Shown here: positions 9,153 to 27,255 of the stretch, piece after piece
How positions within the stretch are numbered: the stretch's first letter is position 1
Layout: each line of letters opens with the position of its first letter
Source of the DNA: Frigoribacterium sp. VKM Ac-2836
Lineage (GTDB): Bacteria; Actinomycetota; Actinomycetes; Actinomycetales; Microbacteriaceae
Direction of reading: 5' to 3'
Length of the DNA stretch: 64,000 bases
Assembly (NCBI RefSeq): GCF_013248995.1
Contig: NZ_JABRPK010000002.1
Location: forward strand, 372,001 to 436,000
Position numbers and translations under genes: made by a program
The notes under the pieces: model-generated
Databases searched by the model: none
What the model was told of the DNA's origin: nothing
What the model saw: only the letters and a program-made list of their open reading frames with translations

Positions 9153-9880
9153 CCTGGGGAAACAGGATCAAGATGACCGTGGGCATCCTCGTGGTGATCG
9201 CCCTCGTGGCCGTCTTCACCGTCATCTTCACGCAGCGACAGGCGCAGGTCATCAGCACCAGCGCGGCCATCGCGAGCCAGGACTTCTCGGTCGGAACGGA
9301 CTACAGCGGCACGGTGACGTCCACCGACGCCGAGGTCGGCGACCGGGTCTCGAAGGGCGACGTCCTCTTCTCGCTGCAGAGCCCCTCGCTGCAGAAGGAC
9401 CTCGCGGACGACGTGGTCGTCCCCGACACGGACGCCTACACGGTGGCCGACGACGGCACGATCACCTTCATGGCCACGGTCGACGGCACGCTGTCGCAGC
9501 TCGACGTCCGTGAGGGTGGGTTCCTCGGTTCGGGTACGACCGTCGCGACCATCGAGAAGGCCGACACGCTCTTCGTGGACGCCGACTTCACGCTCACGCC
9601 CCGTGACTACGAGCGCATCCAGGACGGCGCGATCGTCGACGTCATGCTGCCGAACCAGCAGGTCGTCGAGGGCAGCGTCGACCTGGTCAGCGTCGAGACC
9701 AAGGACGGCGCGGCCGCGGCCACCGTCCGCGTCGTCAGCGACGGGCTGAGCGAGGGGGCCTACAACGGCCTGGTCGCGAGCGGCACACCGGTCGAGGCGA
9801 CCATGCACCTCCGTGACGACGGCATCCTCGCCGGACCGGTGGACACCATGCAGGACTTCCTGCGCCAGATCGGGGTCTGA
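9149..9880 (+). CDS. HlyD-like membrane-anchored protein with biotinyl-lipoyl-like fold
   Basis: A 243-residue protein with one N-terminal TM helix (ILVVIALVAVFTVIF, residues 11-25) and an extracytoplasmic domain. The segment ATVDGTLSQLDVREGGFLGS followed by TTVATIEKADTLFVDADF is the biotinyl-lipoyl-like hairpin of HlyD/membrane-fusion proteins, with a second beta domain after it. The start overlaps the GT2 stop by four bases. In polysaccharide synthase operons such proteins act like Alg44 or CrdA, helping export of the polymer across the envelope; in a Gram-positive cell it would sit on the outer face of the membrane next to the synthase. That role is inferred from context. Confidence 0.75.
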   Translation: MTWGNRIKMTVGILVVIALVAVFTVIFTQRQAQVISTSAAIASQDFSVGTDYSGTVTSTDAEVGDRVSKGDVLFSLQSPSLQKDLADDVVVPDTDAYTVADDGTITFMATVDGTLSQLDVREGGFLGSGTTVATIEKADTLFVDADFTLTPRDYERIQDGAIVDVMLPNQQVVEGSVDLVSVETKDGAAAATVRVVSDGLSEGAYNGLVASGTPVEATMHLRDDGILAGPVDTMQDFLRQIGV

Positions 9881-9972
9881 CGATCCACGGCGCAGCGAGA
9901 AAGACGGCGGGTCGGCCCGACCGACGGGATCGTTCGGGATCCCCGATCGGTTCCGGGTCGGCCCGTCACCCC

Positions 9973-10014
9973 CAGGAGGCGCGGGTCGGCACCCGACCCG
10001 CCCCGCGCCTCCTG
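9973..10014. terminator. hairpin of two inverted motif copies between the HlyD-like and GH81 genes
   Basis: Perfect 13-bp arms CAGGAGGCGCGGG (9973-9985) and CCCGCGCCTCCTG (10002-10014); the loop contains a second possible stem, GGGTCGG with CCGACCC. It lies 93 bases after the HlyD-like stop. Its right arm abuts the segment that would encode the lipoprotein signal of the GH81 protein. Confidence 0.65.
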
Positions 10015-10059
10015 ACCCTCCGGCGGCTCGTCGCCGGTGCCGCCCTCGGCACGGCCGGC

Positions 10060-12087
10060 GTGCTCGTGCTGGCCGGCTGCACCGGCGGCTCGGCGACGGA
10101 CGGTGACTCCGACACCACGGGCCGCCCCGACGCCGCGGGCGACGTGTTCCCGGCCTCGCAGGTCGACCCGCTGGTCGCCGCCCTGCCCCAGGAGTCGGTC
10201 GGCGCCGCGCCGACCATGCGCCTCGCCGACGGACTCGTCCCCCCGACCAACACCTGGTTCTCGGGACTCGTCTTCGGCGACGAGCCGATGCCGGTCTTCC
10301 CGTTCCCGATCTCGTTCCAGCTGACCGCCGACGGTCTCGCCGCGGGCCTGCCCGCACCGGTGGCCTCGGAGAAGGCCGTCGTCGCCCCCGCCCGGTCGGA
10401 CGTCACCCTCGACGTCGGCGCGACGGCCACCGAGGTCAGCTCCTACGACAAGGTCTCGGTGACCGTCGCCCACCTCGACGGCGGCACGGTGCTCGGCCAC
10501 ACGACCGTCGCCGAAGGATCGCCTCTCGTGTCGTACACGGCCGCGACCGCGCAGACCGACACTCTCGGTGCCGCCGTGGAGGCCGTGAGCGACGGCCGGG
10601 GCACGCTCTCCGTCGGCAGCACCACGTGGGGCGTCGCCGTCACGGGCGGGAGCCTCGACGGCACGGCCGTCCGGCTCGACCAGGGCGGCTCGGTCGTGCT
10701 CGTGCCGGTGCCCGACGGCGCCACCGATGACCAGGTGCGGACGGTGCTCGACGCGGCCGCCTCGCCGCTGGCGTCGGTGACCACCGCGCACCGCGCCTCC
10801 GGGTCCGGTTCGACGGCCGTGTCGACCACCGAGCTCGGGTACGAGACGGCCGCCGGGGGAGACACCCTGCTCGTGTCGGCACCCCACATGGGCGACTCGG
10901 CCACCGACGGCGGCACCGGGCTGAGCTACACGACCGTGTACGGCAGCGCTCCGCTGTCGATCGGAACGGCGTTGTCGTTCGACGCGCCGGTCACCGCGGC
11001 CTCCGCGGACCTCGACCTCTCGGGCCTGAGCGACGACGAGAAGGATCGGCTCGGCGACCAGGTCGTCGCCGACGTCGCCGCCACGGAGGCGCCCGCGGCC
11101 GACACCTACTTCGGCGGCAAGGCGCTCTACCGTTCGGCCATGCTGCTGCAGCTCGCCGAGCAGCTCGGCGACGACGCGTCGGCCGACACCCTGCGCACCT
11201 CTCTCGTCGACCGGCTCGACACCTGGACCGACCCCTCGGGCTGCGAGGTGCGCGACCAGGAGTGCTTCGTGTACGACCCCGCGGTGAAGGGCGTCGTCGG
11301 CAAGGTGGCCTCGTTCGGCTCGGACGAGTTCAACGACCACCACTTCCACTACGGCTACTTCCTGTACGCCGCCGGCGTGGTCGCGGCCGACGACCCCGAG
11401 CTGGCCGAGCGCTGGCGGCCGGTCATGGACCTGCTCGCGGCCGACATCGCCTCGGGTGCCCACAACCAGGCGTTCCCCGATCAGCGGGCGTTCGACCCGT
11501 ACTGGTCGCACAGCTGGGCCTCGGGCTACTCGCCGTTCGCCGACGGCAACAACCAGGAGTCGTCGTCCGAGGCGGTCAACGCCTACGCCGGCCTGTCGCT
11601 CTGGGCGAAGGCGTCGGGTGACGACGCGCTGGCCGACCAGGCGTCGTGGATGCTGAGCAGCGAGGCCTCGTCGGCCCTGGCCTACATGCTGTCCCCCGAC
11701 CTGAGCGCCCCGCAGTTCGCCGGGTACGACCACGAGATCGTGTCGCTGACCTGGGGTGGCAAGCGCGACTACGGCACCTGGTTCTCGGCCGAGCCGTCGG
11801 CCATCGCTGGCATCCAGCTGATCCCGCTCGACCCGACCTCGGTCTCGTACCTGACGTCGTCGGCGGCGGGCGGGGCCGAGCAGATCGCCCGGGTGGTCGA
11901 CGAGGCCGGCGCCTCGGGCCCCGACGGGCCCCTGGGCGACTACGTGCTGATGTACTCGGCGCTGCAGGGGCCCGACCAGGCCGCGGCGGCCCTGACGGCG
12001 CTCGCCGACCTGCCCGAGTCGGGCATCGGCGACGGCAACTCGCGGGCCTACGCGATGGCGTACGTCCTGAGCGCCGGGTCGCGGTAG
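10060..12087 (+). CDS. GH81 endo-beta-1,3-glucanase, probable lipoprotein (true start upstream)
   Basis: Glycoside hydrolase family 81, which cleaves internal beta-1,3-glucan bonds. Visible signatures are TNTWFSGLVFGD near the N-terminus, FNDHHFHYGYFLYAAG at about residues 423-438, the acid cluster GNNQESSSEA near 496-505 (catalytic Glu residues) and LTWGGKRDYGTWFS. GTG 10060 is the first standard start in frame, but it cuts an evident signal peptide: the frame upstream from about 10015 reads TLRRLVAGAALGTAGVLVLA followed by GC, a perfect lipobox. No ATG, GTG or TTG exists in frame between the stop at 9814 and 10060; CTG at 10012 would fit. It follows the GT2-HlyD pair and probably trims or turns over its product. 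Confidence 0.85.
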   Translation: MLVLAGCTGGSATDGDSDTTGRPDAAGDVFPASQVDPLVAALPQESVGAAPTMRLADGLVPPTNTWFSGLVFGDEPMPVFPFPISFQLTADGLAAGLPAPVASEKAVVAPARSDVTLDVGATATEVSSYDKVSVTVAHLDGGTVLGHTTVAEGSPLVSYTAATAQTDTLGAAVEAVSDGRGTLSVGSTTWGVAVTGGSLDGTAVRLDQGGSVVLVPVPDGATDDQVRTVLDAAASPLASVTTAHRASGSGSTAVSTTELGYETAAGGDTLLVSAPHMGDSATDGGTGLSYTTVYGSAPLSIGTALSFDAPVTAASADLDLSGLSDDEKDRLGDQVVADVAATEAPAADTYFGGKALYRSAMLLQLAEQLGDDASADTLRTSLVDRLDTWTDPSGCEVRDQECFVYDPAVKGVVGKVASFGSDEFNDHHFHYGYFLYAAGVVAADDPELAERWRPVMDLLAADIASGAHNQAFPDQRAFDPYWSHSWASGYSPFADGNNQESSSEAVNAYAGLSLWAKASGDDALADQASWMLSSEASSALAYMLSPDLSAPQFAGYDHEIVSLTWGGKRDYGTWFSAEPSAIAGIQLIPLDPTSVSYLTSSAAGGAEQIARVVDEAGASGPDGPLGDYVLMYSALQGPDQAAAALTALADLPESGIGDGNSRAYAMAYVLSAGSR

Positions 12088-12170
12088 GGCCGAGCGCAGG
12101 AGGCGCGGGTCACCGCAGGAGGCGCGGGTCGGTTTAAGCGAGAGCCTAAGATCCGCATGTGGTTTTTCGA

Positions 12171-12210
12171 AAGTTTTCACTTACCCTGGCATTTCACTCA
12201 CGTGAAAACT
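12171..12210 (+). promoter_or_regulatory. operator-like inverted sites upstream of the Schlafen-type gene
   Basis: AGTTTTCAC (12172-12180) and GTGAAAACT (12202-12210) form a perfect 9-bp inverted repeat, with an inner TTTCAC (12192-12197) that also pairs with GTGAAA. The ribosome site GGAGG follows directly at 12211. The same AAGTTTTCAC recurs at 13930 right after the gene. Base composition is clearly AT-richer than the surroundings. The region 12088-12170 holds two direct copies of the GGAGGCGCGG motif (12099, 12118) and no gene. Confidence 0.6.
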
Positions 12211-12221
12211 GGAGGTAAATA

Positions 12222-13931
12222 ATGGAGATTGCGATCCAAGCTCTCGACAAGGTCGCGGCCGGTGCAGTCGCCAACAGCGTCGAGAACCAACACGTGGATT
12301 TCAAGGTGCAGGGACGATCGCTCTCGGACACACTCGACAATCTGGCTGAAGCTGCTGCATGTTTTGCAAACGCTGAGGGGGGCTACGTCCTGGTAGGGGT
12401 CAGAGACGACGGGGCTGGCCCAGAGGCGTTCGTGGGTCACGACCTCGACCCGGTGAAGACCCGGTCCCGCATCTACGAGATCACGACCCCCGCCCTGATG
12501 GTCGATGTCTTCGAGCTGCAACACGCGGCCGGCTCTGTGCTGGTCATCCGGGTTCCGCAAGGCGTGGCCGTTCATTCGGTGAAGAGCAAACTGCCGACCG
12601 AGAGGGTCGGGGAGTCATGTTGGCCCATGGACACGCGGCGGATCGCCGCGATAGTCGACGAACGTAGTGGAGTGGACTGGTCAGCGGTGGGCACGAGCGT
12701 CGCGCCCTCAGCCGCCGATCCGCAGGCCATCGCTGTGGCGCGTCGCATGGCCTCGCGTGCAGTGGACCCTTCTAAGAGGCGACTGGCTGACCTCGACGAG
12801 CTCGCCCTGCTCAGGCGCCTGGGGGTCGTCGATTCCAAGGGGTACCTGACGAATGCCGGGGTCTTGCTGTTCGTCGGCCCGCCCGGTGGAGCAGCACTCA
12901 TGTCGTACTCATTCCGGAGGACGCCTGCCGGTCGACTCTCTGCGAACGAGCAGCTCGATGGCCCCCTCGTGGTCGCCGTCGAGCGAGTATTCGACCTCAT
13001 CTCAGCTCGTCTCGAGACCACGCCTGTCTCCGTCGGAAAAGGTCAGCAGCTTCACCTGGCGGACTTGCCGGAGGCCGCCGTTCGAGAAGCCATCGTGAAT
13101 GCAGCCATGCACAGGGACTATCGAGTTCAGGATCGCGTGACGATCGAGCATGCCCAGACGCAGCTCTCCGTGACCTCGCCGGGCGCACTGGTCAGCGGCG
13201 TCACGCCGACGAACATCCTCACGACTTCGTCGCGGTCACGGAATCCGCAGCTTGCACAGGCTCTGAGGATGTTGGACCTGGCCGAGACGGCGGGTTCCGG
13301 TGTGGATCGCATGTATGCGGAGATGACCCGATTGGGCCACCAACCGCCCGTGTTCCTGGCGACGACCCACAGCGTCCAAGTCTCTCTCGTCGGTGGTGCC
13401 CCCAACACCAACATGGCCAGTTTCGTCGCGACCCTCCCCAGCCACGAAGCTGACGACGCGGACACCATGCTCGTTCTTCTGCACCTTCTGACCAAGCGCA
13501 CGCTCTCTGCCTCCGAGATGCAGCCGATCATGCAGAAGGCGAGCTCGGCAGAGGCTCAATCCGTCCTGGCCAGGCTTGCGCGGGACGATGTCGGCATTCT
13601 CGAGCCCACCCGCGAGACGGCAAGCAATCGAGAACCCAACTACCGACTTCGGGAACGCCCCTTGGTGCTTCTCGGTCCCGCCGTTGTCTACAAGAGGCGG
13701 ACGCTGGAGCAGACGGATCGAAAGGTCATCGATCTCGTTCGAGAGACGTCGACGATCAACGCCCGGATGTTGAAGATCATGTTCGATCTGGACAATCGAC
13801 AAGTATCGCGGGTGCTCGCGGATCTGATTGCGAGGGGTGTTCTGATCAAAACGTCGAGCGCCTCACGCGGCCCGGGCGTCACATACGGCGCGGGGCCGGC
13901 GTTCCCAAGGCGACGTGGTGCGACCACATAA
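12222..13931 (+). CDS. AlbA_2/Schlafen-type ATP-binding transcriptional regulator, probably acquired
   Basis: A 569-residue protein. Residues about 15-115 form an AlbA_2 (Schlafen AlbA) domain: VENQHVDFKVQG, AEAAACFANAEGGYVLVGVRDD. Around residues 285-380 lies the HATPase_c_4-like module: LPEAAVREAIVNAAMHRDYR, then GSGVDRMYAEM. The last about 100 residues have winged-helix character (INARMLKIMFDLDNRQVSRVLADLI). Such proteins are putative DNA- or RNA-binding regulators, and some relatives are linked to phage defence or toxin control. ATG at 12222 follows GGAGG. Codon use is much less GC3-biased than in neighbouring genes and the GGAGGCGCGG motif is absent, both signs of recent transfer. Repeats on both sides suggest autoregulation or an insertion scar. 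Confidence 0.75.
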   Translation: MEIAIQALDKVAAGAVANSVENQHVDFKVQGRSLSDTLDNLAEAAACFANAEGGYVLVGVRDDGAGPEAFVGHDLDPVKTRSRIYEITTPALMVDVFELQHAAGSVLVIRVPQGVAVHSVKSKLPTERVGESCWPMDTRRIAAIVDERSGVDWSAVGTSVAPSAADPQAIAVARRMASRAVDPSKRRLADLDELALLRRLGVVDSKGYLTNAGVLLFVGPPGGAALMSYSFRRTPAGRLSANEQLDGPLVVAVERVFDLISARLETTPVSVGKGQQLHLADLPEAAVREAIVNAAMHRDYRVQDRVTIEHAQTQLSVTSPGALVSGVTPTNILTTSSRSRNPQLAQALRMLDLAETAGSGVDRMYAEMTRLGHQPPVFLATTHSVQVSLVGGAPNTNMASFVATLPSHEADDADTMLVLLHLLTKRTLSASEMQPIMQKASSAEAQSVLARLARDDVGILEPTRETASNREPNYRLRERPLVLLGPAVVYKRRTLEQTDRKVIDLVRETSTINARMLKIMFDLDNRQVSRVLADLIARGVLIKTSSASRGPGVTYGAGPAFPRRRGATT

Positions 13932-13960
13932 GTTTTCACGAAGTTTTACCCTCCCCTGGC
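13930..13960. repeat. downstream copy of the AAGTTTTCAC/CCTGGC sequence flanking the acquired gene
   Basis: AAGTTTTCAC at 13930-13939 overlaps the stop codon of the Schlafen-type gene; a second GAAGTTTTACC and CCCTGGC follow. Upstream, AAGTTTTCAC at 12171 is likewise followed by TTACCCTGGC. The flanks therefore share the ordered elements AAGTTTTCAC, TTACCCT/TTACCCTC and CCTGGC. Confidence 0.6.
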
Positions 13961-14046
13961 GGAATCGCCTGGTGGACTTCGTCGGGTGGTATCAGTCGGT
14001 TGGTCGGGCCGGGGCGCGGTAGGCCGAGGGCAGGAGGTGCAGGTCG

Positions 14047-15687
14047 TCAGCCGACGACGCGGACCCGGTCGACCAGACGCTGCACGCTCCCGTCGGGGCG
14101 GTTCGCGACGAGCGTGCCGCCCCAGAAACCGAGCTGATCGCGATCGGCGCCGAGTTGCCAGAGGCGGTGGCCGTCGGACAGGTCGAAGGCGGTGACCATC
14201 GAGGTGCGTCCACCGGAGGCGGTCGTGGCGTAGCCGGTCGTGCGGCCGACGACCGCGATCTGGGACTCGCCCGGCACCACCGCCCGGGCCACCTCGTCGC
14301 CGGACGCCGGGTCGAGCAGGCGGACGGTGCGCTCACCCGCTTCGTCCGACGTGAGGTCGCCCGAGACCGCCGCCGCGCCTCCCGGTTCGAAGGTCTGCGC
14401 GAAGACGAGCGACCCCCGGTCGCCGGCGGGGTCGGTCGTCACCCGGGCGAGCCCGTGGCGGCGGTCGCGGGGCGGCGTCGTCCAGAGCTCGGCTCCGGTG
14501 CGGCGATCGACGCAGACCACCCCCGGCGTCGTCGAGAAGACGACGCAGTCGCGTGTCGTCTGCACGCCGCGGTCCTGGCGGAAGCCGTGCCGCCAGAGCT
14601 CGCGCCCGTCGAGCGAGAGTGCGACGACGGTGCCGTCGGTGTCACCCGTCGAGGTCGGGATCGCCGGGTCGAGACCGACCAGGACGAGGTCGCCGTCGAC
14701 GTCGAGGGTCGTGGCGGTCGGCAGGTCGGGCCCCCAGGCGCGGGTCTCGCCGGTGCGCCCGTCGACCGCGGTGATGACACCGCCGTCGAGCAGGAGCAGG
14801 CCGTCGGGGGTCAGGGCCTCGTCCTGGCTGCCGGTGGTCTCGCCCGTCCACACGGGGGTGCCGAGGTCGCCGGTGTCGAAGAGCGAGAACTCACCCGTCC
14901 CGGGTTCGGAGTCGTAGTAGACCCGGGAGTCCTGGTACGAGAACTGGGGGTCGCTCGAGACGAGGGCCCAGGAGGCGGTGGCATCGGTCAGGCGGGCGCG
15001 CCCGTTCGGCGAGGTGGTCACGCCGGTCAGATCGCCGGTGCCGAGGTCGAGGCGGGCGTACGACGAGGCGAAGCCGTCGCTGCCGAAGCCCAGCGTCGAG
15101 ACGAGGGCCGTGTCGGTGGCACCGTCGGTGGGCCAGACCTGCACGAATCCGCTGCCGGCGTCGAGTTCGGTGCCCAGGTCGACCCACCAGCGGACGGTGC
15201 CCCGGACGGGGTCGACACGCGCGAGCCGGCTGACCGTGGGTGCGGTGCCGCCGAAGCTGCCGTCGAAGCGGCAGTCGCCGTCGACGTCGGTGGTCGAGCT
15301 CGTGCCGGTGTCGGCGTCGCCCTCGGCGCGGCTGGCGCTGACGAGGACGTCACCGCCCAGCCGATCGGGACCCACCGCGGGCTCGGCCTGCCAGAGCAGG
15401 CAGCGGCCTCGGTCCGCCGGCACGCCGACGTCGGCGGGCGTGAGCGTCCACGAGTCGGGCACGGGTTCGTGCCGCAGGTCGTCGCCGTCGACACCGTCGA
15501 GCGCCGCGCCCGCCGAGTAGCGCGGCGCCTCGACCAGGCCGACGGTGGTGACGAGCGCCGCGGCGGCGGCGATGGCGACGGTCACGAGCGCGAGGCGGCG
15601 AGGGCGGGAGGCGCGGTGCCAGGCGTCGGCTCCGCCGCGACGGGCGCGCGCGACCGGTTGGTCGCTCGGTCGGGCGTCGTCCGTCAC
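14047..15687 (-). CDS. membrane-anchored beta-propeller (PQQ-like repeat) protein, paralog 1
   Basis: A 546-residue protein with a cytoplasmic N-terminus, one TM helix (LALVTVAIAAAAALVTTVGLV, about residues 31-51) and a large outer domain of WD/PQQ-like repeats: SRLARVDPVRGTVRWWVDLG, VVALSLDGRELWRHGF, VVCVDRRTGAELWTTPP and VTAFDLSDGHRLWQLG. Each blade ends in the x-G-x-x-L/R-W pattern of propellers that bind no cofactor. A homolog with the same plan lies at 22143. The function is unknown; it may be a cell-surface scaffold or sensor. GTG at 15687 has a TACCAT box six bases before it (leaderless type). A motif copy lies within the N-terminal coding part at 15607. Confidence 0.75.
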   Translation of the reverse strand: MTDDARPSDQPVARARRGGADAWHRASRPRRLALVTVAIAAAAALVTTVGLVEAPRYSAGAALDGVDGDDLRHEPVPDSWTLTPADVGVPADRGRCLLWQAEPAVGPDRLGGDVLVSASRAEGDADTGTSSTTDVDGDCRFDGSFGGTAPTVSRLARVDPVRGTVRWWVDLGTELDAGSGFVQVWPTDGATDTALVSTLGFGSDGFASSYARLDLGTGDLTGVTTSPNGRARLTDATASWALVSSDPQFSYQDSRVYYDSEPGTGEFSLFDTGDLGTPVWTGETTGSQDEALTPDGLLLLDGGVITAVDGRTGETRAWGPDLPTATTLDVDGDLVLVGLDPAIPTSTGDTDGTVVALSLDGRELWRHGFRQDRGVQTTRDCVVFSTTPGVVCVDRRTGAELWTTPPRDRRHGLARVTTDPAGDRGSLVFAQTFEPGGAAAVSGDLTSDEAGERTVRLLDPASGDEVARAVVPGESQIAVVGRTTGYATTASGGRTSMVTAFDLSDGHRLWQLGADRDQLGFWGGTLVANRPDGSVQRLVDRVRVVG

Positions 15688-16081: not shown

Positions 16082-16163
16082 TGCACCGCACCGCACCGCA
16101 CCGCACCGCCCTGCACCGCACCGCACCGCACCGCACCGCACCGCACCGCCCTGCACCGCGCCG
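16082..16163. repeat. ACCGC pentanucleotide tandem repeat
   Basis: Runs of CACCGCACCGCACCGC interrupted twice by CCTG, within the 207-base gap between the small membrane protein and the response regulator. No gene is credible in this gap. Confidence 0.85.
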
Positions 16164-16262
16164 CGTTCCGTGCAGCGCACCATGACTAGTCGTGGTGCCG
16201 TGCACGAATCCTGGTGTGCCGCCGCGGCCGCACCGGACGAACGTGCGCTCTGACGGATCGGC

Positions 16263-16931
16263 TCAGCCGCCCTCGGTGCGCGCGAAGCCGGAACGGAACG
16301 CGAAGACGGCCGCCTGGACGCGCGTGCGACTGTCGGTCTTGGCCAGCAGGCTCGAGATGTGGCTCTTCACGGTGGCCGTGCTCACGAAGAGCTCGCGGGC
16401 GATGTCGACGTTGCTGAGGCCGCGCGCGACGGCGTCGAGCACGTCCCGCTCGCGGTCGCTCAACGAGTCGAGGGCCGCCCGGTGGCGCACGGCGTCCGGC
16501 GACGTGGGGGCCGGGGCGACCCGTTGCTCGATGAGGGCCCGCGTCATGGCCGGGTCGATCAGCGAGTCGCCCCGGGCCGCCGACCGTACCGCGGCGGCGA
16601 TGAGGTCGGGCCCGGAGTCCTTGAGCAGGAAGCCCGAGGCGCCGGCGGCGATGCCGTCGAACAGGTGCTCGTCGTCGTCGAAGGTCGTGATGAGGACCAC
16701 GGCGCAGCCGATCGTCGGCACGATGCGCCGGGTGGCGGCGATGCCGTCGAGCCGGGGCATCCGGATGTCCATCACGACGACGTCGGGTCGCAGGGCGAGC
16801 GCGTCGGCGACGGCGTCCTCGCCGTCGGCGCTCTGCCCGACGACGTCGACGTCCGGTTCGGCGTCGAGCATCGTCGCGAGCCCCGCGCGGGCGATCGCCT
16901 GGTCGTCGACCACCAGGACCCGCAACGTCAT
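16263..16931 (-). CDS. NarL/LuxR-type response regulator
   Basis: A 222-residue two-component regulator. The receiver domain has VLVVDDQ (acidic pocket) near residues 5-11, the phospho-acceptor Asp in VVVMDIRMPRLDG near residue 54, a Thr in LITTFDDD and Lys in FLLKDSG. The C-terminal LuxR-type helix-turn-helix reads LSDRERDVLDAVARGLSNVD and VSTATVKSHISSLLAK. It is the last gene of a reverse operon: its ATG at 16931 overlaps the kinase stop (ATGA). It should be phosphorylated by that kinase and act on unknown promoters. Confidence 0.92.
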   Translation of the reverse strand: MTLRVLVVDDQAIARAGLATMLDAEPDVDVVGQSADGEDAVADALALRPDVVVMDIRMPRLDGIAATRRIVPTIGCAVVLITTFDDDEHLFDGIAAGASGFLLKDSGPDLIAAAVRSAARGDSLIDPAMTRALIEQRVAPAPTSPDAVRHRAALDSLSDRERDVLDAVARGLSNVDIARELFVSTATVKSHISSLLAKTDSRTRVQAAVFAFRSGFARTEGG

Positions 16932-18250
16932 GCCGTCCGCCCTGTGCTCGACGCCGACGCCGCAGTCGTGGCCGGCAGTTCGGCGCGGACCCGCCAACCG
17001 GTCCCGTCGGCGCTCGGCCCCGTGGTCAGCGTCCCGCCGGCCGCACGGACCCGATCGTGCATGGACGGGATGCCGGCCCCGCCCAGGGGCACGTCCGGGA
17101 ACCGTTCGCGGGCGGGCCCGGGGTCGGCCACCGTGACGACCGTCGCGCCCGACGTGTCGTCGACCGTGACGTGGACCCGATGCGCCGACGAGTGCAGCAT
17201 CGCGTTCGTCAGCCCCTCGCGCACCACGGCCAGGACCGTGGCGCGACGCTCGGCCGGCAGGTCGTCGCCGAGGTGCACCGCGCCGTCGACCTCGTAGCCG
17301 AGCGACGTCAGGCGGCCGGTCATCAGCGCCAGTTCGTCGACGACCGAGGTCGTGCCGGCGGCCCCAGCGGGTGCCGCCCGAAGCACGCGCAGCACACCGC
17401 GGATGCGTCCCAGGACGTCCTGCCCGCTGACGGCGATGTCCCGCATGGCCGGGGCCAGCTGCTCGGGGTGGTCCTCGGCGACCCGGAGGGCGGCCTGCGC
17501 CCGGATGACCAGGGCGGCGACGTGATGGCCGACCTCGTCGTGCACGTCCCGGGCGATGCGGGTGCGTTCGTGCTCCGAGATGCGTGCGACCTCGGCTGCC
17601 CGCAGCACCAGCAACTCGCGATTCGTCCTTGCGAGCTCGGTCGTGGCCTCGCGCTGACGCCGGAGCAGGACGGCGACCGTCAGCAGGATGCCGCAGGCCA
17701 GGAGCCGGCCGAGCACGACGGAACGGTCCTGCCCCGCGTCCGACAGCAGCACCTGCGTGAGCGGCACCCCCTGGACGCCGGCCGCGGCGACGTCGCGCCA
17801 CGGCAGGACGACGAGCACGGAGAGGGTGACGAAGGTGGCCCCGGCGGCGATGACCGGTCCACGTCCCGAGATGGTCAGGAAGACGACGACGGCGAGCGGC
17901 ACGAGCGCCTCGGGCGGCCCGAGGTAGAGGCCGTACAGCGCCGGGGGGAGGGGCGCGAGGGTCGTGTACGCAGTGAAGACGGTGACGACGACCAGCGTCT
18001 CGACGGGCCACCGGTCGAGGGTCGCGCACGCGACGAGCGCCACGACGCCGACGTAGAGGTACCCGGGAAGTGCCTGCGGGTACCACTCGAGCTGCAGGGC
18101 GACGGCGAGTCCGGCGAAGTAGGCGCCCCCGACCAGCGTGAGCACGACCAGTCGGGTTCGCCCCCACCCACTCGCCGCCGGCGACGGCCAGGCGAGTCGA
18201 CGCCCGCCCGCGCGGGTCGTGGCGGTCCCGTTCGTCTGCACGGCCTCCAC
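16928..18250 (-). CDS. DesK/NarX-type sensor histidine kinase
   Basis: A 440-residue membrane kinase. About five or six TM helices fill residues 30-180 and leave little outside the membrane, so it probably senses a membrane or small-molecule signal. A HisKA_3 domain follows with the phosphorylation site RDVHDEVGHHVAALVIRAQ (His of D-V-H-D-E), then a HATPase domain with VREGLTNAMLHS (N box) and GGAGIPSMHDR (G box). GTG at 18250 is strongly favoured: the upstream amidoligase gene stops with TAG only one base earlier, the pattern of translational coupling. The partner regulator follows with a four-base overlap. Confidence 0.9.
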   Translation of the reverse strand: MEAVQTNGTATTRAGGRRLAWPSPAASGWGRTRLVVLTLVGGAYFAGLAVALQLEWYPQALPGYLYVGVVALVACATLDRWPVETLVVVTVFTAYTTLAPLPPALYGLYLGPPEALVPLAVVVFLTISGRGPVIAAGATFVTLSVLVVLPWRDVAAAGVQGVPLTQVLLSDAGQDRSVVLGRLLACGILLTVAVLLRRQREATTELARTNRELLVLRAAEVARISEHERTRIARDVHDEVGHHVAALVIRAQAALRVAEDHPEQLAPAMRDIAVSGQDVLGRIRGVLRVLRAAPAGAAGTTSVVDELALMTGRLTSLGYEVDGAVHLGDDLPAERRATVLAVVREGLTNAMLHSSAHRVHVTVDDTSGATVVTVADPGPARERFPDVPLGGAGIPSMHDRVRAAGGTLTTGPSADGTGWRVRAELPATTAASASSTGRTA

Positions 18251-18251
18251 G

Positions 18252-19427
18252 CTAACGCCGCCCCGCCGACGTCGCCTCGGCCGAAAGGACCAATCGGGCC
18301 GGGTCGCCGGACCGGGCGAGGTCGAGCAGTCCGGCCGCGGCCGCGCGCGCGTCGGAGCTCGTCGGACGGGGCACGGGCTCCGTCTCGAGGCACCGGGCCA
18401 GCAGGCGCTCGACCAGGCCCGCACTCTCGGTGAGCTCGGCGGCGTCGAGGGTGCCCGGCAGGATGCGGATCTCGATCGTGTCGCGCACGGGGCGGTCGGT
18501 CACCAGGGCGGTCAGGTTGACGTCGGCGTACTTCGTCAGCCCGGTGCCTGCGGCGTCCGCCTGCAGCTGCGACCAGTCTCGGGCCCGCCCGCCGTCCCCA
18601 CGGTCCGCCCGGTCGACGAGTTCGACCACGGCGGACGGCAGCGGCGCGAGACGCGTGCACGCGGGATTCGTCGCAAGCACGGCACGCAGCGGGTCGCGCC
18701 ACCACGAGAACAGGCGCACGAGGTTGGCGAAGGCGGTGACTGACCGGAACGGCGCGCCGTCGACGTGCAGGTGCACGGCCGCCTCGACCGGCACCGTGAA
18801 GCCGAGCTGTCGAGCCGGTCCGAGCAGTCGCTCGAGGGTGGCCTCGTGGTCGGCGACGACCGGCGGCGTGACGATCTCGCACGGTCGCTCGCGTCCTGCC
18901 GCCAGCGCCGAGGCCAGGGCGATGCTCGAGCCGGCACCGTCGCGCAGGCGTCGCACGGCGCCGACCGTCTCGACCGTGCTGCCGAAGAGCGCGGCCGCCT
19001 CGTCGAGGGCGTGGTCGAAGGGTGCGTCCGGGGACGAGTGCCGGGCCACGAGGCGCAGGAGGCGCGGATCGTCGGAGAGCACCCGGTACGGATGGCCGTC
19101 GGACCGGTCCGCGTCGGCGGGGCGCGTGTCCGGCGACGGCCCGACCCGCGCCTCCTCGTGGTCGCGGCGGAGGTCGTCGACGAGCGTGACGTCGTCGACG
19201 AGCTCGGCGACGGGCCTCCCGAGGCAGTCCGAGACGGCGTAGCCCGGCGTCAGGTGCCAGAAGTGGCCCATGCCCGGCACGAGCGACGGCTCGGAGTCGG
19301 TGTGGAAGAAACGCGTGACGTGACCGTCGTGGTCGTCCGCGAGACGATCGGCCAGCGTGCGCCGGCTCGACCCGCGCGGGGCCATCAGCTCGACCTCGAA
19401 GCCGATGCGGGAGTGGAGGGTCGTCAT
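18252..19427 (-). CDS. amidoligase family protein (putative carboxylate-amine ligase)
   Basis: A 391-residue protein with the pattern of the glutamine-synthetase/GCS-fold amidoligases: IGFEVELMAPRGSSRRTLAD at the N-terminus (metal-binding E-V-E), RFFHTDSEPSLV, HFWHLTPGYAV, CEIVTPPVVADHEATLERLL, EAAVHLHVDGAPF, FANLVRLFSWWRDPLRA and IEIRILPGT near the end. Such enzymes are predicted to form amide bonds on peptides or small molecules using ATP; the exact reaction is unproven. It lies in an operon between a secreted repeat protein (77 bases upstream) and a kinase-regulator pair (one base downstream). The gene holds two GGAGGCGCGG motif copies, one encoding E-E-A-R-V. ATG at 19427 is chosen from family alignment memory; longer extensions are proline-rich. 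Confidence 0.8.
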   Translation of the reverse strand: MTTLHSRIGFEVELMAPRGSSRRTLADRLADDHDGHVTRFFHTDSEPSLVPGMGHFWHLTPGYAVSDCLGRPVAELVDDVTLVDDLRRDHEEARVGPSPDTRPADADRSDGHPYRVLSDDPRLLRLVARHSSPDAPFDHALDEAAALFGSTVETVGAVRRLRDGAGSSIALASALAAGRERPCEIVTPPVVADHEATLERLLGPARQLGFTVPVEAAVHLHVDGAPFRSVTAFANLVRLFSWWRDPLRAVLATNPACTRLAPLPSAVVELVDRADRGDGGRARDWSQLQADAAGTGLTKYADVNLTALVTDRPVRDTIEIRILPGTLDAAELTESAGLVERLLARCLETEPVPRPTSSDARAAAAGLLDLARSGDPARLVLSAEATSAGRR

Positions 19428-19462
19428 GGGGCTTCCGTCAGGGGGTGGGTGCAGGCGGCAGT

Positions 19463-19492
19463 CGTCGGGCGGCCCGGTGGGACCGCCCGACG
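19463..19492 (-). terminator. intercistronic hairpin between repeat-protein and amidoligase genes
   Basis: Perfect 10-bp arms CGTCGGGCGG / CCGCCCGACG with a 10-base loop. Placed between two same-strand genes, it may partly terminate transcription or protect the upstream mRNA, so that the secreted repeat protein is made in excess over the enzyme. Confidence 0.55.
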
Positions 19493-19504
19493 GCGGTGCG
19501 GGGA

Positions 19505-20257
19505 TCAGAGGGGCAGGTCGTCCCCGGCCAGCAGGGCGGCTCCGGCGCGCACCACGGCGGACCGGGTGTCGCTCTGCCACAGGCCCGCGAGCTGCGCCGC
19601 CTGGTCGTCCCCGTAGCCGACCAGGGCGAAGGCCCGGGCGTCCTGGTCGTCGGTGTACGACGTCGGTGCGGCGGGCACCTGCTCGTGGGCGAGCAACAGG
19701 CCGCCGACCTTCGCCTTGGCCGTCGAGACGTCGTCGCTGCCCCAGGCGACGGCGAGTCCGAGGGCCTGCGTGAAGTCGTCGACGTACGTCGCGTCGGTGC
19801 CCGAGGCGAAGAAGGCGGCACGACGCTGCTCGTCCGTGTAGGCCGTCGTCGTGGCCGCACCTGCCTCATAGGGGAGGGCGGTGCCGGCCGTCAGCGCGGC
19901 TCCGGCCTTGCCCTTCGCCGTCGTCGTGTCGAGCCCCCAGACGACCGCGAGGTTGAGCGCGTCGTCGGCGTAGGGCGAGGCGGCGAAGGCCGCCAGGTCG
20001 GCTGCGGTGTACGTGACCTTCGGCGCCGTCGACGTCGTGGGCTCCGCTGCCGCCTGGGCGGCGGGGGAACTGCCCGGTGCCGCGAGGGCGCCGAGTGCTC
20101 CGAGCCCGGCGATCGAGCCCGCCAGGGCGCAGGCGACCGCGGCGGTCGCCGTCACGCGTCGGAAGGCGGAACCGGTCGAGCGGCGGGGGGTGTCGGCGCG
20201 ATCGGCGCCGTCCCGGGTCCTCCGGGCCGTGTCGTGGATGACGTTCCTGTCGTTCAT
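19505..20257 (-). CDS. secreted protein with three tandem about 50-residue repeats
   Basis: A 250-residue exported protein. A long basic N-region (residues 1-35) precedes a hydrophobic core (VTATAAVACALAGSIAGLGA) and a likely cleavage site after AQA. The mature part has three repeats, beginning VTYTAADLAAFAAS, TAYTDEQRRAAFFASG and TSYTDDQDARAFALVG. Each then has Y-x-D-D, a LA-x-x-W block (NLAVVWGLD, GLAVAWGSD, QLAGLWQSD), an A-K-x-K-x-G or similar block and ends in L-P. ATG at 20257 follows GAGGAGA. I recognise no known domain. As first gene of the operon with the amidoligase and the two-component pair, it could be the enzyme's substrate or a surface partner (inference). Confidence 0.7.
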   Translation of the reverse strand: MNDRNVIHDTARRTRDGADRADTPRRSTGSAFRRVTATAAVACALAGSIAGLGALGALAAPGSSPAAQAAAEPTTSTAPKVTYTAADLAAFAASPYADDALNLAVVWGLDTTTAKGKAGAALTAGTALPYEAGAATTTAYTDEQRRAAFFASGTDATYVDDFTQALGLAVAWGSDDVSTAKAKVGGLLLAHEQVPAAPTSYTDDQDARAFALVGYGDDQAAQLAGLWQSDTRSAVVRAGAALLAGDDLPL

Positions 20258-20458
20258 GTCGTTCTCCTCGTTGGGAAGGTCGGTCCGGGTGACGGGGTCC
20301 GTCGCCTCTCGACCACGGCTGACGTTAGGAGGCGCCGACGCGGGGCGACAAGGCGTCGTGGCGAGGTCTGGCCGGTCGGCGGCGGACGGTGGCCGTGGGG
20401 ACGAGGGCGCCGCGCCTCCTGCGTCGTCCGAAGGGATGGATCCGCCCCGGCGCGCCCG

Positions 20459-22142: not shown

Positions 22143-23927
22143 TCACCCGCGGTCGGCCACGGCCCTCGGGTCGTCGACACGGCGGACGACGCCGTCCTGG
22201 CCCGTGACCACCAGGTGCGGACCCCAGAAGCCGATGTCGACCGCCTCGGTGGGCGAGGTCCTCCAGAGCTCGCGGTGGCTGTGCTCGTCGAAGGCGACGA
22301 CGGACGATCGGCCGTCGACGTCGAACGCCAGCTGGTAGACCGTCGTGCGGCTCCGGGCCAGAGGCGCCGAGTACCCCGGCAGCGTCGCCGTGAAGGCCAC
22401 GTGCCCGTCCTCGGCGTCGAAGGTCGTGACGGTCGTGGTCTCGTCCCCGAAGGCGCTCGAGGGCGAGACGGAGACCTGCACCTGGTCGAACGCCGAGTCC
22501 GGCAGGGGGTTCCAGCCGGACTGCACGGTCTGCCCGCTGCGGACCGGGAGGCTCGTCGTCCACCGGGCCTCACCGGTCGCGGGCGACAGGCAGGTCACCG
22601 AGACCCGTCCGCCGGGGTCGTCCTGGCCGTCGTCGTCGCCCGCACCCCTCGGCCCCTCGACCACGGGGTCGCCGCTCTGGGTGGTGGCCGTGACCGTGAC
22701 GCAACGGTCCGACACGATCAGTGAGGCGTCCCCCGCGAGGTCGGCCGACCAGCCGATCGCACCGGGGTCGTCCTGCGAGAACGCGACGAGGCGTTGGCCG
22801 TCGATCGCCGCGAACGCGACGAGCACGTGGTCGCCGGCCGACTCGGGCCAGCCGTAGGCGTCGTCGGCGATCGGCACCGGGTGCTCGGTGCCGGTCGTGG
22901 CGTCGATCACGCGGGACCCGCCACCCGCCGTCGTCAGCACGTACAGCTCGTCGTCGAACAGGGTCACGGTCGCCTGGGACGGCTCGTCTCCGCGCCACGA
23001 CACGGTGTCGAGGTCGTCGAGCGGGTGCAGCTCGAACCGGGTCCGGTCGTCGTCTTCGGTCGTCGGGCCCGTGCCGTCGGCCCCGAACCGCGACCGCGGC
23101 TGGTGCGAGACGAGGACGCTCGACGACGAGAGGCCCTCGATGCGCGTGACCTCGTCGGGATCGCTCGACTCGACGGCCGCCGAGCGGTCGGTGACCTCCC
23201 CGGTGGCCAGGTCGAGCCGAGCGAGGGTCGAGCCGGCGTCGACCTCGACGGTCAGGGTCGCGGCACGCTCGTCGTCGTCGGGCGTCACGGACACCGAGCG
23301 CACCGCCCGGCCGAGGGTCGTGGCCACGTTCGTGCTCCAGGTCACGTCGCCGGTCTCGCCGTCGACCCGGACCAGGCGCCCGCCGGACCCGCCGCACCGG
23401 TCGGACAGCTCGGCCGTCTGGGCCGACATGATCGCGTCGTCACCGACCCCGCCGACCCTCAGGTAATAGGTGCAACCGGCGGGCGTGCCCGGCGTCGACT
23501 CGGCGCTCAGGTCGGTCCGCCAGACGGTCTCGGTCGGTTCGCCGCGCAGGTCGTCGACCAGCATCGCGGGTCGCGCCGGGTCGTCGTAGCGCGGTTGCAC
23601 CGCGAGGCCCGCGCCGGCGACGAGCGCGGTCACCGCGGCCACGGCGCCGACCGTCAGCCCCAGGCGGCGAGCCCGGGAGGCGCGGGTCCAGACCCGGCGC
23701 AGCGCACCACCGGTCCGGGCTCCGACCGTCCGCAGCGGGGACGGCCCCGCGCGCCTCCCTGCCCCGGTCGCCTCCACCCCGTCCGACTCGTCGCGAGCAT
23801 CGGCGTCGGCCACGGGATCACCGGGGCGAGCGGGCAACCTCGTCGGCGGCCCGGAGGAGTCGACCCGCGCCTCCCAGGCTGCCGGCGGGCGCTCGGGGCG
23901 CATCGGCTGCCACGACGGTCCGTTCAC
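22143..23927 (-). CDS. membrane-anchored beta-propeller (PQQ-like repeat) protein, paralog 2
   Basis: A 594-residue protein from GTG 23927, which has GGGAGG six bases upstream; an ATG at 23948 is an alternative. Plan as in the gene at 14047: disordered cytoplasmic N-terminus, one TM helix (LGLTVGAVAAVTALVAGAGLA), then a large outer propeller with blades such as LVRVDGETGDVTWSTNV, VTCLSPATGEARWTTSLP and VVAFDEHSHRELWRTSP. The final segments of the two paralogs match closely (FWGPHLVVTGQDGVVRRVDD here, FWGGTLVANRPDGSVQRLVD there). Role unknown, probably at the cell surface. Two motif copies lie in the N-terminal coding part (23676, 23865). Confidence 0.72.
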   Translation of the reverse strand: MNGPSWQPMRPERPPAAWEARVDSSGPPTRLPARPGDPVADADARDESDGVEATGAGRRAGPSPLRTVGARTGGALRRVWTRASRARRLGLTVGAVAAVTALVAGAGLAVQPRYDDPARPAMLVDDLRGEPTETVWRTDLSAESTPGTPAGCTYYLRVGGVGDDAIMSAQTAELSDRCGGSGGRLVRVDGETGDVTWSTNVATTLGRAVRSVSVTPDDDERAATLTVEVDAGSTLARLDLATGEVTDRSAAVESSDPDEVTRIEGLSSSSVLVSHQPRSRFGADGTGPTTEDDDRTRFELHPLDDLDTVSWRGDEPSQATVTLFDDELYVLTTAGGGSRVIDATTGTEHPVPIADDAYGWPESAGDHVLVAFAAIDGQRLVAFSQDDPGAIGWSADLAGDASLIVSDRCVTVTATTQSGDPVVEGPRGAGDDDGQDDPGGRVSVTCLSPATGEARWTTSLPVRSGQTVQSGWNPLPDSAFDQVQVSVSPSSAFGDETTTVTTFDAEDGHVAFTATLPGYSAPLARSRTTVYQLAFDVDGRSSVVAFDEHSHRELWRTSPTEAVDIGFWGPHLVVTGQDGVVRRVDDPRAVADRG

Positions 23928-25700: not shown

Positions 25701-26393
25701 TCAGGAGGCGGGAGGCGTCTCGAGCGCGTCGACGGCGGCGAGGACCTCGTCGACCTCGGTGCGGGTCGTGTAGTCGACGTGGACGTCGGCGAAGACGACC
25801 TTGCCGTCGCGGTCGACGACCAGGACGGTCGGGAACGGCACGTCGGCGGTCGCGTCGGCGTTGCTGTCGGCGACGTCGAACCCGAGGTCGGAGTGCACCG
25901 CGCGGGCGGCCGCGACCGGCTCGGTCTGGATGCCCAGAGCCCGGACGAGCACGTTGCCCGGGTCGGACAGCACGGGGAACTCGAGCCCGCCGTTCTCGAC
26001 GGACCGTTCGCTGCCCTCGGGTGTCTGGGGGCTGATCGCGACCAGCGCGACGCCCCGCGTGCGCAGCTCGGGCAGCAGGTCGGCCTGATAGGTCTTGAGC
26101 GTCAGGTTGCAGTACGGGCACCAGGCGCCGCGGTAGAAGACCAGGACGGCCGGGCCTTCGCCGACCGTCTCGGACAGCGAGACCTCGTCGCCGGCGGTCG
26201 TCACGAGCGTGGCGTCGACGATGGTGTCGCCCACCCGGACGGCGCTCTCGGGAACGCCCGTCTCGCGCAGACCCGACTGCTCGTCGTCGAAGACCTTCGT
26301 GGCGTCCGCGCCGATCCGGGCGTTGAAGCCCCCGCTGAACTCGCTCACCTGGTCGGCGATGCTGTGGGGGGTGCTGGAGTCGGCGTTCGACAT
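25701..26393 (-). CDS. peroxiredoxin-like AhpC/TSA protein, tandem copy 1
   Basis: A 230-residue thioredoxin-fold protein of the AhpC/TSA group: VFYRGAWCPYCNLTLKTYQ holds the active C-P-Y-C pair, then VALVAISPQTPEGSE and FPVLSDPGNVLVRALG. Expected to reduce peroxides or act as a thiol oxidoreductase in the cytoplasm. A C-terminal V-D-Y-T-T-R-T-E-V-D-E is shared with the next copy. It lies 169 bases downstream of a close paralog on the same strand, which suggests tandem duplication. ATG at 26393 has AGGACC upstream. Confidence 0.85.
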   Translation of the reverse strand: MSNADSSTPHSIADQVSEFSGGFNARIGADATKVFDDEQSGLRETGVPESAVRVGDTIVDATLVTTAGDEVSLSETVGEGPAVLVFYRGAWCPYCNLTLKTYQADLLPELRTRGVALVAISPQTPEGSERSVENGGLEFPVLSDPGNVLVRALGIQTEPVAAARAVHSDLGFDVADSNADATADVPFPTVLVVDRDGKVVFADVHVDYTTRTEVDEVLAAVDALETPPAS

Positions 26394-26562: not shown

Positions 26563-27255
26563 TCAGGCGGCGCGTCGCTCGAGCAGGTCGAGTGCGGCGA
26601 TGATCTCGTCGACCTCGGTGCGGGTCGTGTAGTCGGTGTGGACGTCGGCGAAGACGACGACGCCGTCGTGGTCGATGACGAGCACGGTCGGGAACGGGAT
26701 GTCGCCCGTCGCGTCCGCGTTGCTGTCGGCGACGTCGAACCCGAGCTGCGTGTGGACGGCGCGGGCGGCGGCCGCAGGCTCGGTCCGGATTCCCAGGGCG
26801 CCACTGAGCACGTTGCCCGGGTCGGACAGCACGGGAAACTCCAGGCTGCCGTTCGTCACCGACGCCTCGGAACCCTCGGGGGTCTGCGGGCTGATCGCGA
26901 CGAGGGCGACACCTCGCTCACGGAGGCGCGGCAGCAACTCGGCCTGGTAGGTCTTGAGCGTCAGGTTGCAGTAGGGGCACCAGGCGCCGCGGTAGAAGAC
27001 GAGCACGGCCGGCCCTTCGCCCACGGTCTCCGCGAGCGAGACCTCGGCGTCCTGGGGTGTCAGCAGTGTCGCCTCGACGACGGTGTCGCCGGGCGCGACG
27101 GCGTCGTCGGGGACGCCGGCCTCACGCAGGGCGCTCTGCTCGTCGTCGAAGACCTTCGAGAACTCGGGGCCGATCTGCGCAGTGAAGCCTTCGGTGAACA
27201 CGGTCACCTGATCGGCGATGGTCTGGGTGTCGCTGGGGGTGTTGGCGTTCGACAT
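26563..27255 (-). CDS. peroxiredoxin-like AhpC/TSA protein, tandem copy 2
   Basis: Same length (230 residues) and order of motifs as the downstream copy: VFYRGAWCPYCNLTLKTYQ, VALVAISPQTPEGSE, FPVLSDPGNVLSGALG, VDYTTRTEVDE when the aligned D-Y-T-T-R-T is read. The copies differ mostly at the N-terminus and in the final dozen residues. Both keep the catalytic Cys pair, so both are probably active. ATG at 27255 follows GAGAGGACC. No oxyR or other regulator is next to it. Confidence 0.85.
   Translation of the reverse strand: MSNANTPSDTQTIADQVTVFTEGFTAQIGPEFSKVFDDEQSALREAGVPDDAVAPGDTVVEATLLTPQDAEVSLAETVGEGPAVLVFYRGAWCPYCNLTLKTYQAELLPRLRERGVALVAISPQTPEGSEASVTNGSLEFPVLSDPGNVLSGALGIRTEPAAAARAVHTQLGFDVADSNADATGDIPFPTVLVIDHDGVVVFADVHTDYTTRTEVDEIIAALDLLERRAA

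Follow-up and report, generated by a model that had tools for sequence, protein, structure and literature searches.

The window, that is, the whole 64,000-nucleotide stretch of Frigoribacterium DNA analyzed here, harbors on its minus strand a set of four genes encoding an exported repeat protein (REP), an amidoligase, a membrane histidine kinase and a response regulator (Table 1). An earlier note on this DNA had described the four as tightly linked, and this was borne out, with 77 bases separating REP from the amidoligase gene, a single base between the amidoligase and kinase genes and a 4-base overlap between those of the kinase and the regulator. Equally sound were its calls of three homologous repeats in the exported protein, of an amide-bond-forming family for the second gene, of a multi-TM kinase (five hydrophobic segments) and of a hairpin in the 77-base gap. 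The Pfam matches, HisKA_3 in the kinase and Response_reg plus GerE in the regulator, are those of a two-component system.

Table 1. Features of the amidoligase operon and its upstream region, in positions of the window
Feature	Position	Strand	Description
Putative regulator binding site	20427..20438	-	CATCC-cttc-GGA; upstream of REP
Possible promoter	20322..20351	-	TTGTCG-N18-TAACGT, upstream of REP; TTG..TANNNT form in 8/12 loci examined
REP, exported repeat protein	19505..20257	-	250 aa; hydrophobic export segment at residues 40-58, then three repeats
Repeat 1	19871..20011	-	Residues 83-129; three predicted helices
Repeat 2	19673..19840	-	Residues about 140-195; Lys27 (K181) kept in 14/14 proteins of the window's type
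Repeat 3	19511..19654	-	Residues about 202-249; ends the protein
Stem-loop in REP-amidoligase gap	19463..19492	-	13-bp stem; -32.7 kcal/mol, z -2.19; 6/200 shuffles as good
Amidoligase	18252..19427	-	391 aa; Pfam Amidoligase_2; GS/GCL/Dop/PafA-like predicted fold; no hydrophobic segment
Membrane histidine kinase	16928..18250	-	GTG start, 440 aa; HisKA_3
Response regulator, NarL/LuxR-type	16263..16931	-	222 aa; Response_reg + GerE

Residues 7-338 of the amidoligase matched Amidoligase_2 (PF12224) at E 6.3e-14 and 52.9 bits (cut-off 22), with a further match to the amidoligase family of PHROGs (E 2.6e-04) and none in NCBIfam; with E values as high as 10 admitted, Amidoligase_2 was still the only Pfam family found, with neither ATP-grasp nor Pup-ligase families appearing. 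The AlphaFold model (11 sequences; pLDDT 76) predicts a GS-like carboxylate-amine ligase fold, with VIA listing glutamate-cysteine ligase at Z 10.2 (223 residues aligned, 4.0 A), Dop at Z 10.1 (212 aligned, 3.7 A), glutamine synthetases at up to 9.9 and PafA at 8.7, and a Z of at least 8 for 130 of 998 chains. Foldseek alone returned no enzyme at 0.001, its best match being a glutamine synthetase at 2.4e-03, and a sequence search of the PDB yielded a single match at E 2. Because 79 columns are invariant across 21 diverse amidoligases, including E11, E13, H219, K299, N304 and R321, the protein is likely a live enzyme; at one locus (L090, genome G537), the amidoligase is spread over several reading frames and may be broken. 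To our knowledge, no substrate is known for most Amidoligase_2 enzymes. Iyer et al. in 2009 reportedly predicted the proteins of this family to be GS-like ligases. The subfamily of the window is actinobacterial and sharply bounded, with four class-level matches at E 2.3e-136 or better and no other reaching 0.001. An origin from a mobile element was rejected, as the enzyme had no match in 72,556 plasmid and 50,697 phage records, and none of 42 pattern-matching viral-contig stretches encoded a relative; since the position of the operon differs within Frigoribacterium, it may still have moved between sites.

REP itself had no match in Pfam, NCBIfam, PHROGs or PADLOC, and its only hit by sequence in the PDB was a peptidyl-tRNA hydrolase at E 0.052. 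A repeat profile built from all loci, about 41 residues long, detected three repeats in REP at 41, 47 and 51 bits, and the AlphaFold model comprises three three-helix units with pLDDT mostly above 90. Structure searches with the repeat (Foldseek, VIA) gave a best Z of 4.0 over 48 residues, which is uninformative for small helical domains. As no family matched in the libraries searched, the repeat may represent an undescribed domain family. One Trp is conserved in all repeats counted, those below 25 bits being left aside, and in proteins of the window's type the chain stops directly after the last repeat, the C-terminus of REP being GDDLPL. Each of the 50 repeat proteins scored retains Lys27 in one or more of its repeats and likewise an acid at position 10. 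Within the window's type, the acid at position 10 is kept in repeat 1 and Lys27 in repeat 2 in 14 of 14 proteins each, while other positions drift and Lys27 is missing from repeat 3 in 13 of 14; repeat 1 has a second invariant lysine at position 29 (K117; 11 sequences). An Asp10-Lys27 bond within a single domain was dismissed, as the two residues did not covary within repeats (83/16/14/4, Fisher p 0.51).

The earlier note had proposed a survey of neighborhoods and took rare adjacency of the enzyme to the repeat protein or the two-component genes as fatal to its reading. The survey did not refute it: the repeat gene lies directly upstream of the amidoligase in 39 of 40 loci, and nearby in the remaining one, across seven GTDB families. 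Gene calls alone gave 38, and L090 was added on inspection since the sole intervening call is a 53-aa opposite-strand ORF over the start of the amidoligase. Copies of assemblies already in the set (L034-L037, L039-L043) were excluded from the 40 loci, and L037 from the profile scan; sigma factors at L080 and L142 (the latter frame with an irregular end), a second repeat gene at L088 and a regulator at L027, all missed by the gene caller, were added from frames. A set of 396 genomes from the order contained 21 with the amidoligase and 22 with the repeat; the former all fall within the latter, and the one exception is a 76% complete draft (G576). Among 23 Microbacteriaceae genomes, the repeat was present in 15 of 15 with the amidoligase and in 0 of 8 without it. 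Two weak matches, in G024 (20.5 bits, a 1,072-aa frame) and in G754 (C1:3476765, 25.1 bits), were dropped after the repeat profile proved negative there. The enzyme is patchily distributed, being found in 8 of 16 genomes of Frigoribacterium and in 12 of 398 across the family, and its operon occupies three different neighborhoods within Frigoribacterium. Three amidoligase-bearing genomes have additional repeat genes apart from the amidoligase (L136-L138), implying a relation of one enzyme to many repeats, as of enzyme to substrate. From our reading of the neighborhoods, no other family, be it a transporter, a further biosynthetic enzyme, an exporter or a protease, recurs beside the pair across groups. 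As judged by gene content, the pairing of repeat and amidoligase is near-obligate, and we found no description of it in the open literature searched, which took in parts of PMC8939145, PMC3511204, PMC12823222 and PMC10945688.

The four-gene operon as the earlier note conceived it fared less well, since the kinase and regulator are not part of the core. A two-component pair lies downstream in 16 of the 40 loci (14 NarL-type, 2 OmpR-type), and in 17 others an ECF sigma factor gene sits beside a repeat gene; seven sigma proteins were scanned, all with Sigma70 regions 2 and 4, and the rest were assigned by clustering or reading. The remaining seven loci had no regulator called beside the pair, with L032 and L093-L095 truly devoid of one, L033 and L105 truncated where their contigs end, and L078 having its sigma/repeat pair elsewhere. 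In the ECF loci, the repeat probably forms the outer part of an anti-sigma factor, because the gene of the repeat-bearing partner overlaps the sigma gene and its product has one hydrophobic segment behind a short N-terminus (4 of 4 examined); a Pfam scan of 5 such partners gave no anti-sigma match. Of 15 amidoligase-bearing Microbacteriaceae genomes searched, 13 have an ortholog of the window's kinase (at least 50% identity), as against 0 of 8 Frigoribacterium genomes without the amidoligase; by this distribution, the kinase/regulator pair is dedicated to the operon in the genomes tested, yet exchangeable. As the regulators swap among loci, the core is the repeat protein and the amidoligase, wired to a switch that is probably envelope-sensing. 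At the level of sequence, then, secreted and anti-sigma-like proteins share one repeat, the regulators are exchangeable and upstream motifs recur. The presence of the same repeat in the switch of relatives suggests a cell that keeps watch over the very protein module it produces.

Upstream of REP, a CATCC..GG site was present at a distance of 127-188 bases in 12 of 12 loci examined, the scan covering 12 of the 14 NarL-type loci (all except L072 and L074), and the possible promoter was missed by a stricter promoter scan. A scan of three genomes for GGCAACC-N16-CGTC gave 20-21 matches each vs. 3-6 for the reversed control. Many of these matches resemble Gly-Asn codons, and the known loci are the only targets we name. 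Neither the sigma genes of L091 and L092 nor the first gene in their row had the f15 motif upstream, and the promoter patterns as typed were found in 1 of 3 cases for f9 and 2 of 3 for f32/f49, all being similar by eye. Strong hairpins were predicted in all five Frigoribacterium gaps folded (the window and L025-L028), and a terminator role was rejected for that of the window, a scan having found no terminator-like site in the 77-base gap. The hairpin is not general to the system, because 13 of the 40 gaps are 8 bases or shorter or are overlaps. The earlier suggestion that it might yield more substrate than enzyme would pertain at most to part of Frigoribacterium.

We surmise that the two parts of the core, the exported protein with its three-helix repeats and the GS-fold amidoligase in the cytoplasm, are controlled by a regulator that senses the envelope. 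Before export, the amidoligase would spend ATP in the cytoplasm on making amide bonds within the repeat domains or to them, with Asp10 and Lys27 as the foremost candidate residues; the modified repeats would then work outside the cell, and the regulator (in the window the kinase and response regulator, in other loci a sigma factor with an anti-sigma-like protein that bears the repeat) would read the state or fate of surface repeats and tune expression of the module. We give this reading about an even chance. Repeats plus enzyme were rightly picked out as the core in the earlier note, and the amide-linked modification that it also proposed we still only infer, along with the activity of the enzyme, the repeat as its substrate, the reacting residues, the anti-sigma identity of the membrane repeat proteins and what the regulator senses. 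In favor of the reading are the adjacency and co-occurrence of the two genes, their overlap or spacing of at most 8 bases in 13 of 40 loci, the additional repeat genes of three genomes, the invariant columns and predicted fold of the enzyme, the retention of Lys27 and the acid at position 10, and the distribution of the kinase. On the other side stand the lack of covariation between Asp10 and Lys27, both of which could be structural, the loss of Lys27 from repeat 3 and the second lysine of repeat 1 in the window's type, the seven loci with no regulator called, the repeat in G576 without a detected amidoligase, the possibly broken gene at L090 and the weak Foldseek result. Sec-exported proteins cross the membrane unfolded, so the amidoligase would need to act on an unfolded chain, and this counts against the proposal. 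In a more specific and rather unlikely version, acid 10 of one repeat would form an isopeptide cross-link to Lys27 of another repeat or repeat protein, and outside the cell a regulator either bearing the repeat or monitoring it would read whether the bond is present or broken. If true, this version would amount to a cell-surface checkpoint based on covalent cross-links. In the window's type, the invariant acid of repeat 1 and Lys27 of repeat 2 fit such an inter-repeat bond, a pattern that is only a hint because repeat 1 keeps another lysine.

The main rival to modification of the repeats, possible but in our view doubtful, holds that the enzyme acts elsewhere, either producing a small molecule with an amide linkage or amidating a wall precursor, with the repeat as an extracellular binder of that product or of the altered wall and the anti-sigma-like protein or kinase sensing the same ligand. 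A compact, predicted folded repeat with a fully conserved Trp would suit a binder, its occurrence in secreted proteins as well as on the anti-sigma side fits a sensing-type binding module, and the substrates of the fold superfamily include small amino acids and protein tags, the latter exemplified by PafA (PMC3511204). However, neither a transporter nor an extra biosynthetic family lies beside the pair across groups, and the patchy distribution speaks against a basic wall-type enzyme.

It is very unlikely that the repeats are RiPP-like core peptides, modified and then cleaved off to give free bioactive peptides, with the regulators serving quorum sensing or immunity. Multiple repeats beside a ligase do recall the multi-core graspetide precursors (PMC8939145), and a trypsin-like protease gene adjoins at one locus (L078), but the enzyme lacks an ATP-grasp domain by Pfam, the repeats are predicted to be folded with conserved core residues, neither exporter nor protease recurs across groups, and membrane anti-sigma-like proteins bear the same repeat. 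We find it hardly credible that the amidoligase ligates the repeat protein or its C-terminus to other proteins as a Pup-like tag: the enzyme belongs to the PafA/Dop fold superfamily and window-type proteins end right after the last repeat, but Amidoligase_2 is its sole Pfam match, and the candidate tag is exported, predicted to be folded and does not end in Gly-Gly-Glu/Gln. Least probable of all, to a degree that we consider negligible, is a chance or historical linkage of four unrelated genes; the NarL-type kinase and regulator are indeed missing from 26 of 40 amidoligase loci, but for the repeat-amidoligase pair this idea is in effect refuted by adjacency over seven families, by the three Frigoribacterium neighborhoods and by the amidoligase accompanying the repeat in all except one of the genomes with it.

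Modification of the repeats before export remains our preferred reading. Since all amidoligase-bearing genomes examined share one partner domain, two genes suffice for a direct test of what the substrate is. The repeat in the outer part of anti-sigma-like proteins, together with three kinds of switch on the same pair, points to a circuit for surface monitoring that is apparently built around the repeat domain. The window enzyme is a member of Amidoligase_2 by sequence and predicted fold, but differs from the family at large in belonging to an actinobacterial, sharply bounded subfamily tied to one repeat domain. In cellulolytic clostridia, RsgI anti-sigma factors have carbohydrate-binding modules in common with the secreted enzymes under their control, a parallel to the ligand-binding rival above. 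As in SigI-RsgI, the anti-sigma-like protein has an outer domain that matches in kind one in the secreted proteins; the sigma class and the domain differ, and an amidoligase is found in the operon here. The system resembles PafA/Dop pupylation (PMC3511204) in being actinobacterial and of the same fold superfamily, PafA and Dop making or breaking amide bonds on proteins, but it has no Pup-ligase match, its partner is exported and predicted to be folded, and it has envelope-sensing regulators of its own; Pup is a small disordered tag ending in Gly-Gly-Glu/Gln, unlike the predicted folded REP with its different C-terminus. Graspetide precursors are short, with Thr/Glu/Asp core motifs; REP is 250 aa long and has three domains predicted to fold behind its export segment. 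As with graspetide RiPPs (PMC8939145), a ligase adjoins a precursor-like gene with repeats; unlike graspetides, the enzyme is GS-like and not ATP-grasp, the 41-residue repeats are predicted to fold and follow an export segment, and the repeat also forms an anti-sigma-like receptor.

The repeat gene and the amidoligase form the core of this operon, whose four minus-strand genes, spacing and hairpin were all confirmed as the earlier note had described them. Among 40 amidoligase loci, representing 39 genomes (the window's included) and Curtobacterium sp. Leaf261, a repeat gene is the immediate same-strand upstream neighbour of the amidoligase in 39, comprising 38 as called and locus L090, where an opposite-strand 53-aa ORF was disregarded; the exception is genome G754, in which a four-gene block separates the two and a second repeat gene lies downstream. 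Across 23 Microbacteriaceae genomes, the repeat was found in 15/15 with the amidoligase and 0/8 without. The repeat protein as query matched 11 of 60 relatives, namely the 10 amidoligase-bearing genomes and one weak match, discarded after failing re-examination. A single-repeat profile in the order sample (396 genomes) found 22, comprising all 21 amidoligase carriers plus G576, which is a draft 76% complete in 610 contigs. In 50 genomes spread across the class, the repeat was found in the window's own only. Additional repeat genes, each adjoining a sigma factor, lie away from the amidoligase in three of the genomes that carry it (L136, L137, L138).

Positions of the operon genes and of features observed near them or in related loci
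Feature	Position	Remark
Repeat protein, window	19505-20257	250 aa; residue 43 a nearly invariant Cys within the hydrophobic export segment
Amidoligase, window	18252-19427	Pfam Amidoligase_2; no hydrophobic segment
Histidine kinase, window	16928-18250	Pfam HisKA_3; five hydrophobic segments
Response regulator, window	16263-16931	Pfam Response_reg and GerE
GCACC tandem array, window	16083-16164	5-base unit, 16.4 copies; immediately 3' of operon
Large same-family genes, window	14047-15687 and 22143-23813	flank operon on both sides
Second paralog pair, window	25701-26393 and 26563-27255	
Four-gene block, locus L142 (G754)	8159-14088	one gene weakly like PADLOC trypsin-like models (E 6.4e-06)
Amidoligase, locus L090 (G537)	6900-8071	spans more than one reading frame; gene broken or sequencing error
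Trypsin-like protease gene, locus L078	8290-9156	directly 3' of amidoligase; Pfam Trypsin 6.4e-20
Gene row, locus L093	3073-9609	3' of amidoligase; two related genes (the one scanned weakly propeller-like), AAA gene with weak resemblance to the MoxR of MoxR-vWA-propeller systems, weakly VWA-like gene; row also in L095; L094 cut short

In these searches, the amidoligase forms a subfamily of patchy spread with a sharp boundary, since its class-level matches have E values of 2.3e-136 or better and no other reaches 0.001. It occurs in 10/60 relatives (including 8/16 genomes of the window's genus), 12/398 genomes of the family-level sample, 21/396 at order level, 5/345 at class level (the window's own and four more) and 1/246 at phylum level (the window's own); close relatives among named records belong to Frigoribacterium, Agreia and Curtobacterium, and searches of plasmid, phage and viral collections did not find it. 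Alignment of 21 diverse sequences yielded 79 invariant columns, including E11, E13, H219, K299, N304 and R321, with catalytic roles that we presume by analogy with glutamine synthetases. The amidoligase model, built from only 11 sequences, superposes on glutamate-cysteine ligase, Dop, glutamine synthetase and PafA at Z about 9 to 10; Foldseek alone returned nothing at 0.001, with glutamine synthetase on top (2.4e-03). Substrates in this fold superfamily are small acids or, for PafA and Dop, a protein tag (PMC3511204).

The window's repeat protein has a single hydrophobic segment (residues 40-58) and no match in Pfam or NCBIfam. A 41-position model fits 128 repeats (120 distinct) in 50 proteins, with one to five copies per protein and the consensus FFxAGYxYxDAxxLAxLWxxxDxxxAKxxAGxxLLAGxxLP from 37 selected copies. 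Conserved positions among the 120 include Trp18 (100%), Pro41 (98%), Leu14 (97%), Gly31 (97%), Ala11 (90%), Lys27 (83%) and Asp10 (78%). Each of the window's three repeats is predicted to be a three-helix unit (pLDDT mostly >90), and comparison of the repeat model with solved structures gave no good match.

Regulators adjoining the pair sort into NarL-type (14 of 40 loci), OmpR-type (two) and an ECF sigma factor adjoining a repeat gene (seventeen), with none called in seven. The ECF loci comprise 12 from clustering, L080 and L082 from reading frames, and L102-L104, and Pfam matched sigma70 regions 2 and 4 in all 7 sigma proteins scanned, some of them from extra loci. In the NarL-type loci L029-L031, the kinase starts 0.3-0.9 kb past the amidoligase; L075 and L076 have an OmpR-type regulator with a HisKA kinase (Pfam run on L075). 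Contig ends interrupt L033 and L105, L078 has its sigma/repeat pair elsewhere in the genome (L138), and L032 and L093-L095 have no regulator beside the pair. The window's kinase has an ortholog in 13/15 amidoligase-bearing Microbacteriaceae genomes searched vs. 0/8 Frigoribacterium genomes without the amidoligase, where top matches were ≤36% identical. Regulator class requires 6 changes on the amidoligase tree vs. 18.9 with shuffled labels, on a quick tree with 12/37 inner branches weak.

Upstream of the repeat gene, CATCC-N-GG lies at -127 to -188 in 12/12 NarL-type loci examined (single-base shuffles: mean 1.65/12, 0/500 as high), a strength overstated by the relatedness of the sequences. 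In the f15 group of ECF-type loci, GGCAAC-N17-CGTC precedes the sigma gene in 8/10 regions (shuffle mean 0.018/10), those of the main loci L084-L089 as well as the extra ones L136 and L137; it was not found at L091 and L092. In genome G449 the motif recurs between the two repeat genes, next to where the repeat-amidoligase pair begins, an arrangement expected if an ECF factor regulates its own operon.

Given the ratio of one enzyme to many repeats, the tight linkage and the near-obligate co-occurrence, we surmise that the repeat is the substrate of the amidoligase, the best explanation at hand and one that we hold at even odds. Asp10 and Lys27 are the repeat's most conserved ionisable positions, and no covariation between them was found within a repeat. 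Among the 14 NarL-type proteins, the acid is retained in 14 copies of repeat 1, 1 of repeat 2 and 10 of repeat 3, and Lys27 in 8, 14 and 1, respectively; at least one Lys27 and one position-10 acid are retained in 50/50 repeat proteins, and K117 is a further invariant lysine in repeat 1. This pattern is compatible with a bond between repeats as well as with plain structural drift. Ranked second, and less likely in our estimate, is that the amidoligase makes a ligand or wall modification which the repeats bind. The sigma partners whose N-termini were examined (L086, L103, L083 and L137) have a short N-terminal part, one hydrophobic segment and then repeats, arranged as in membrane anti-sigma factors, making them candidate anti-sigma proteins, and L103 has a complete set of sigma factor, single four-repeat membrane protein and amidoligase. 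That anti-sigma-like proteins bear the repeat suggests, whether it is substrate or binder, that the cell senses its fate outside.

The enzyme family of the amidoligase is already known; in the open literature, we found no description of the repeat domain, its pairing with the amidoligase or its role as outer domain in sigma partners. The system is partly like both pupylation and graspetides, but lacks some defining features of either, and its likeness to SigI-RsgI is in logic only.
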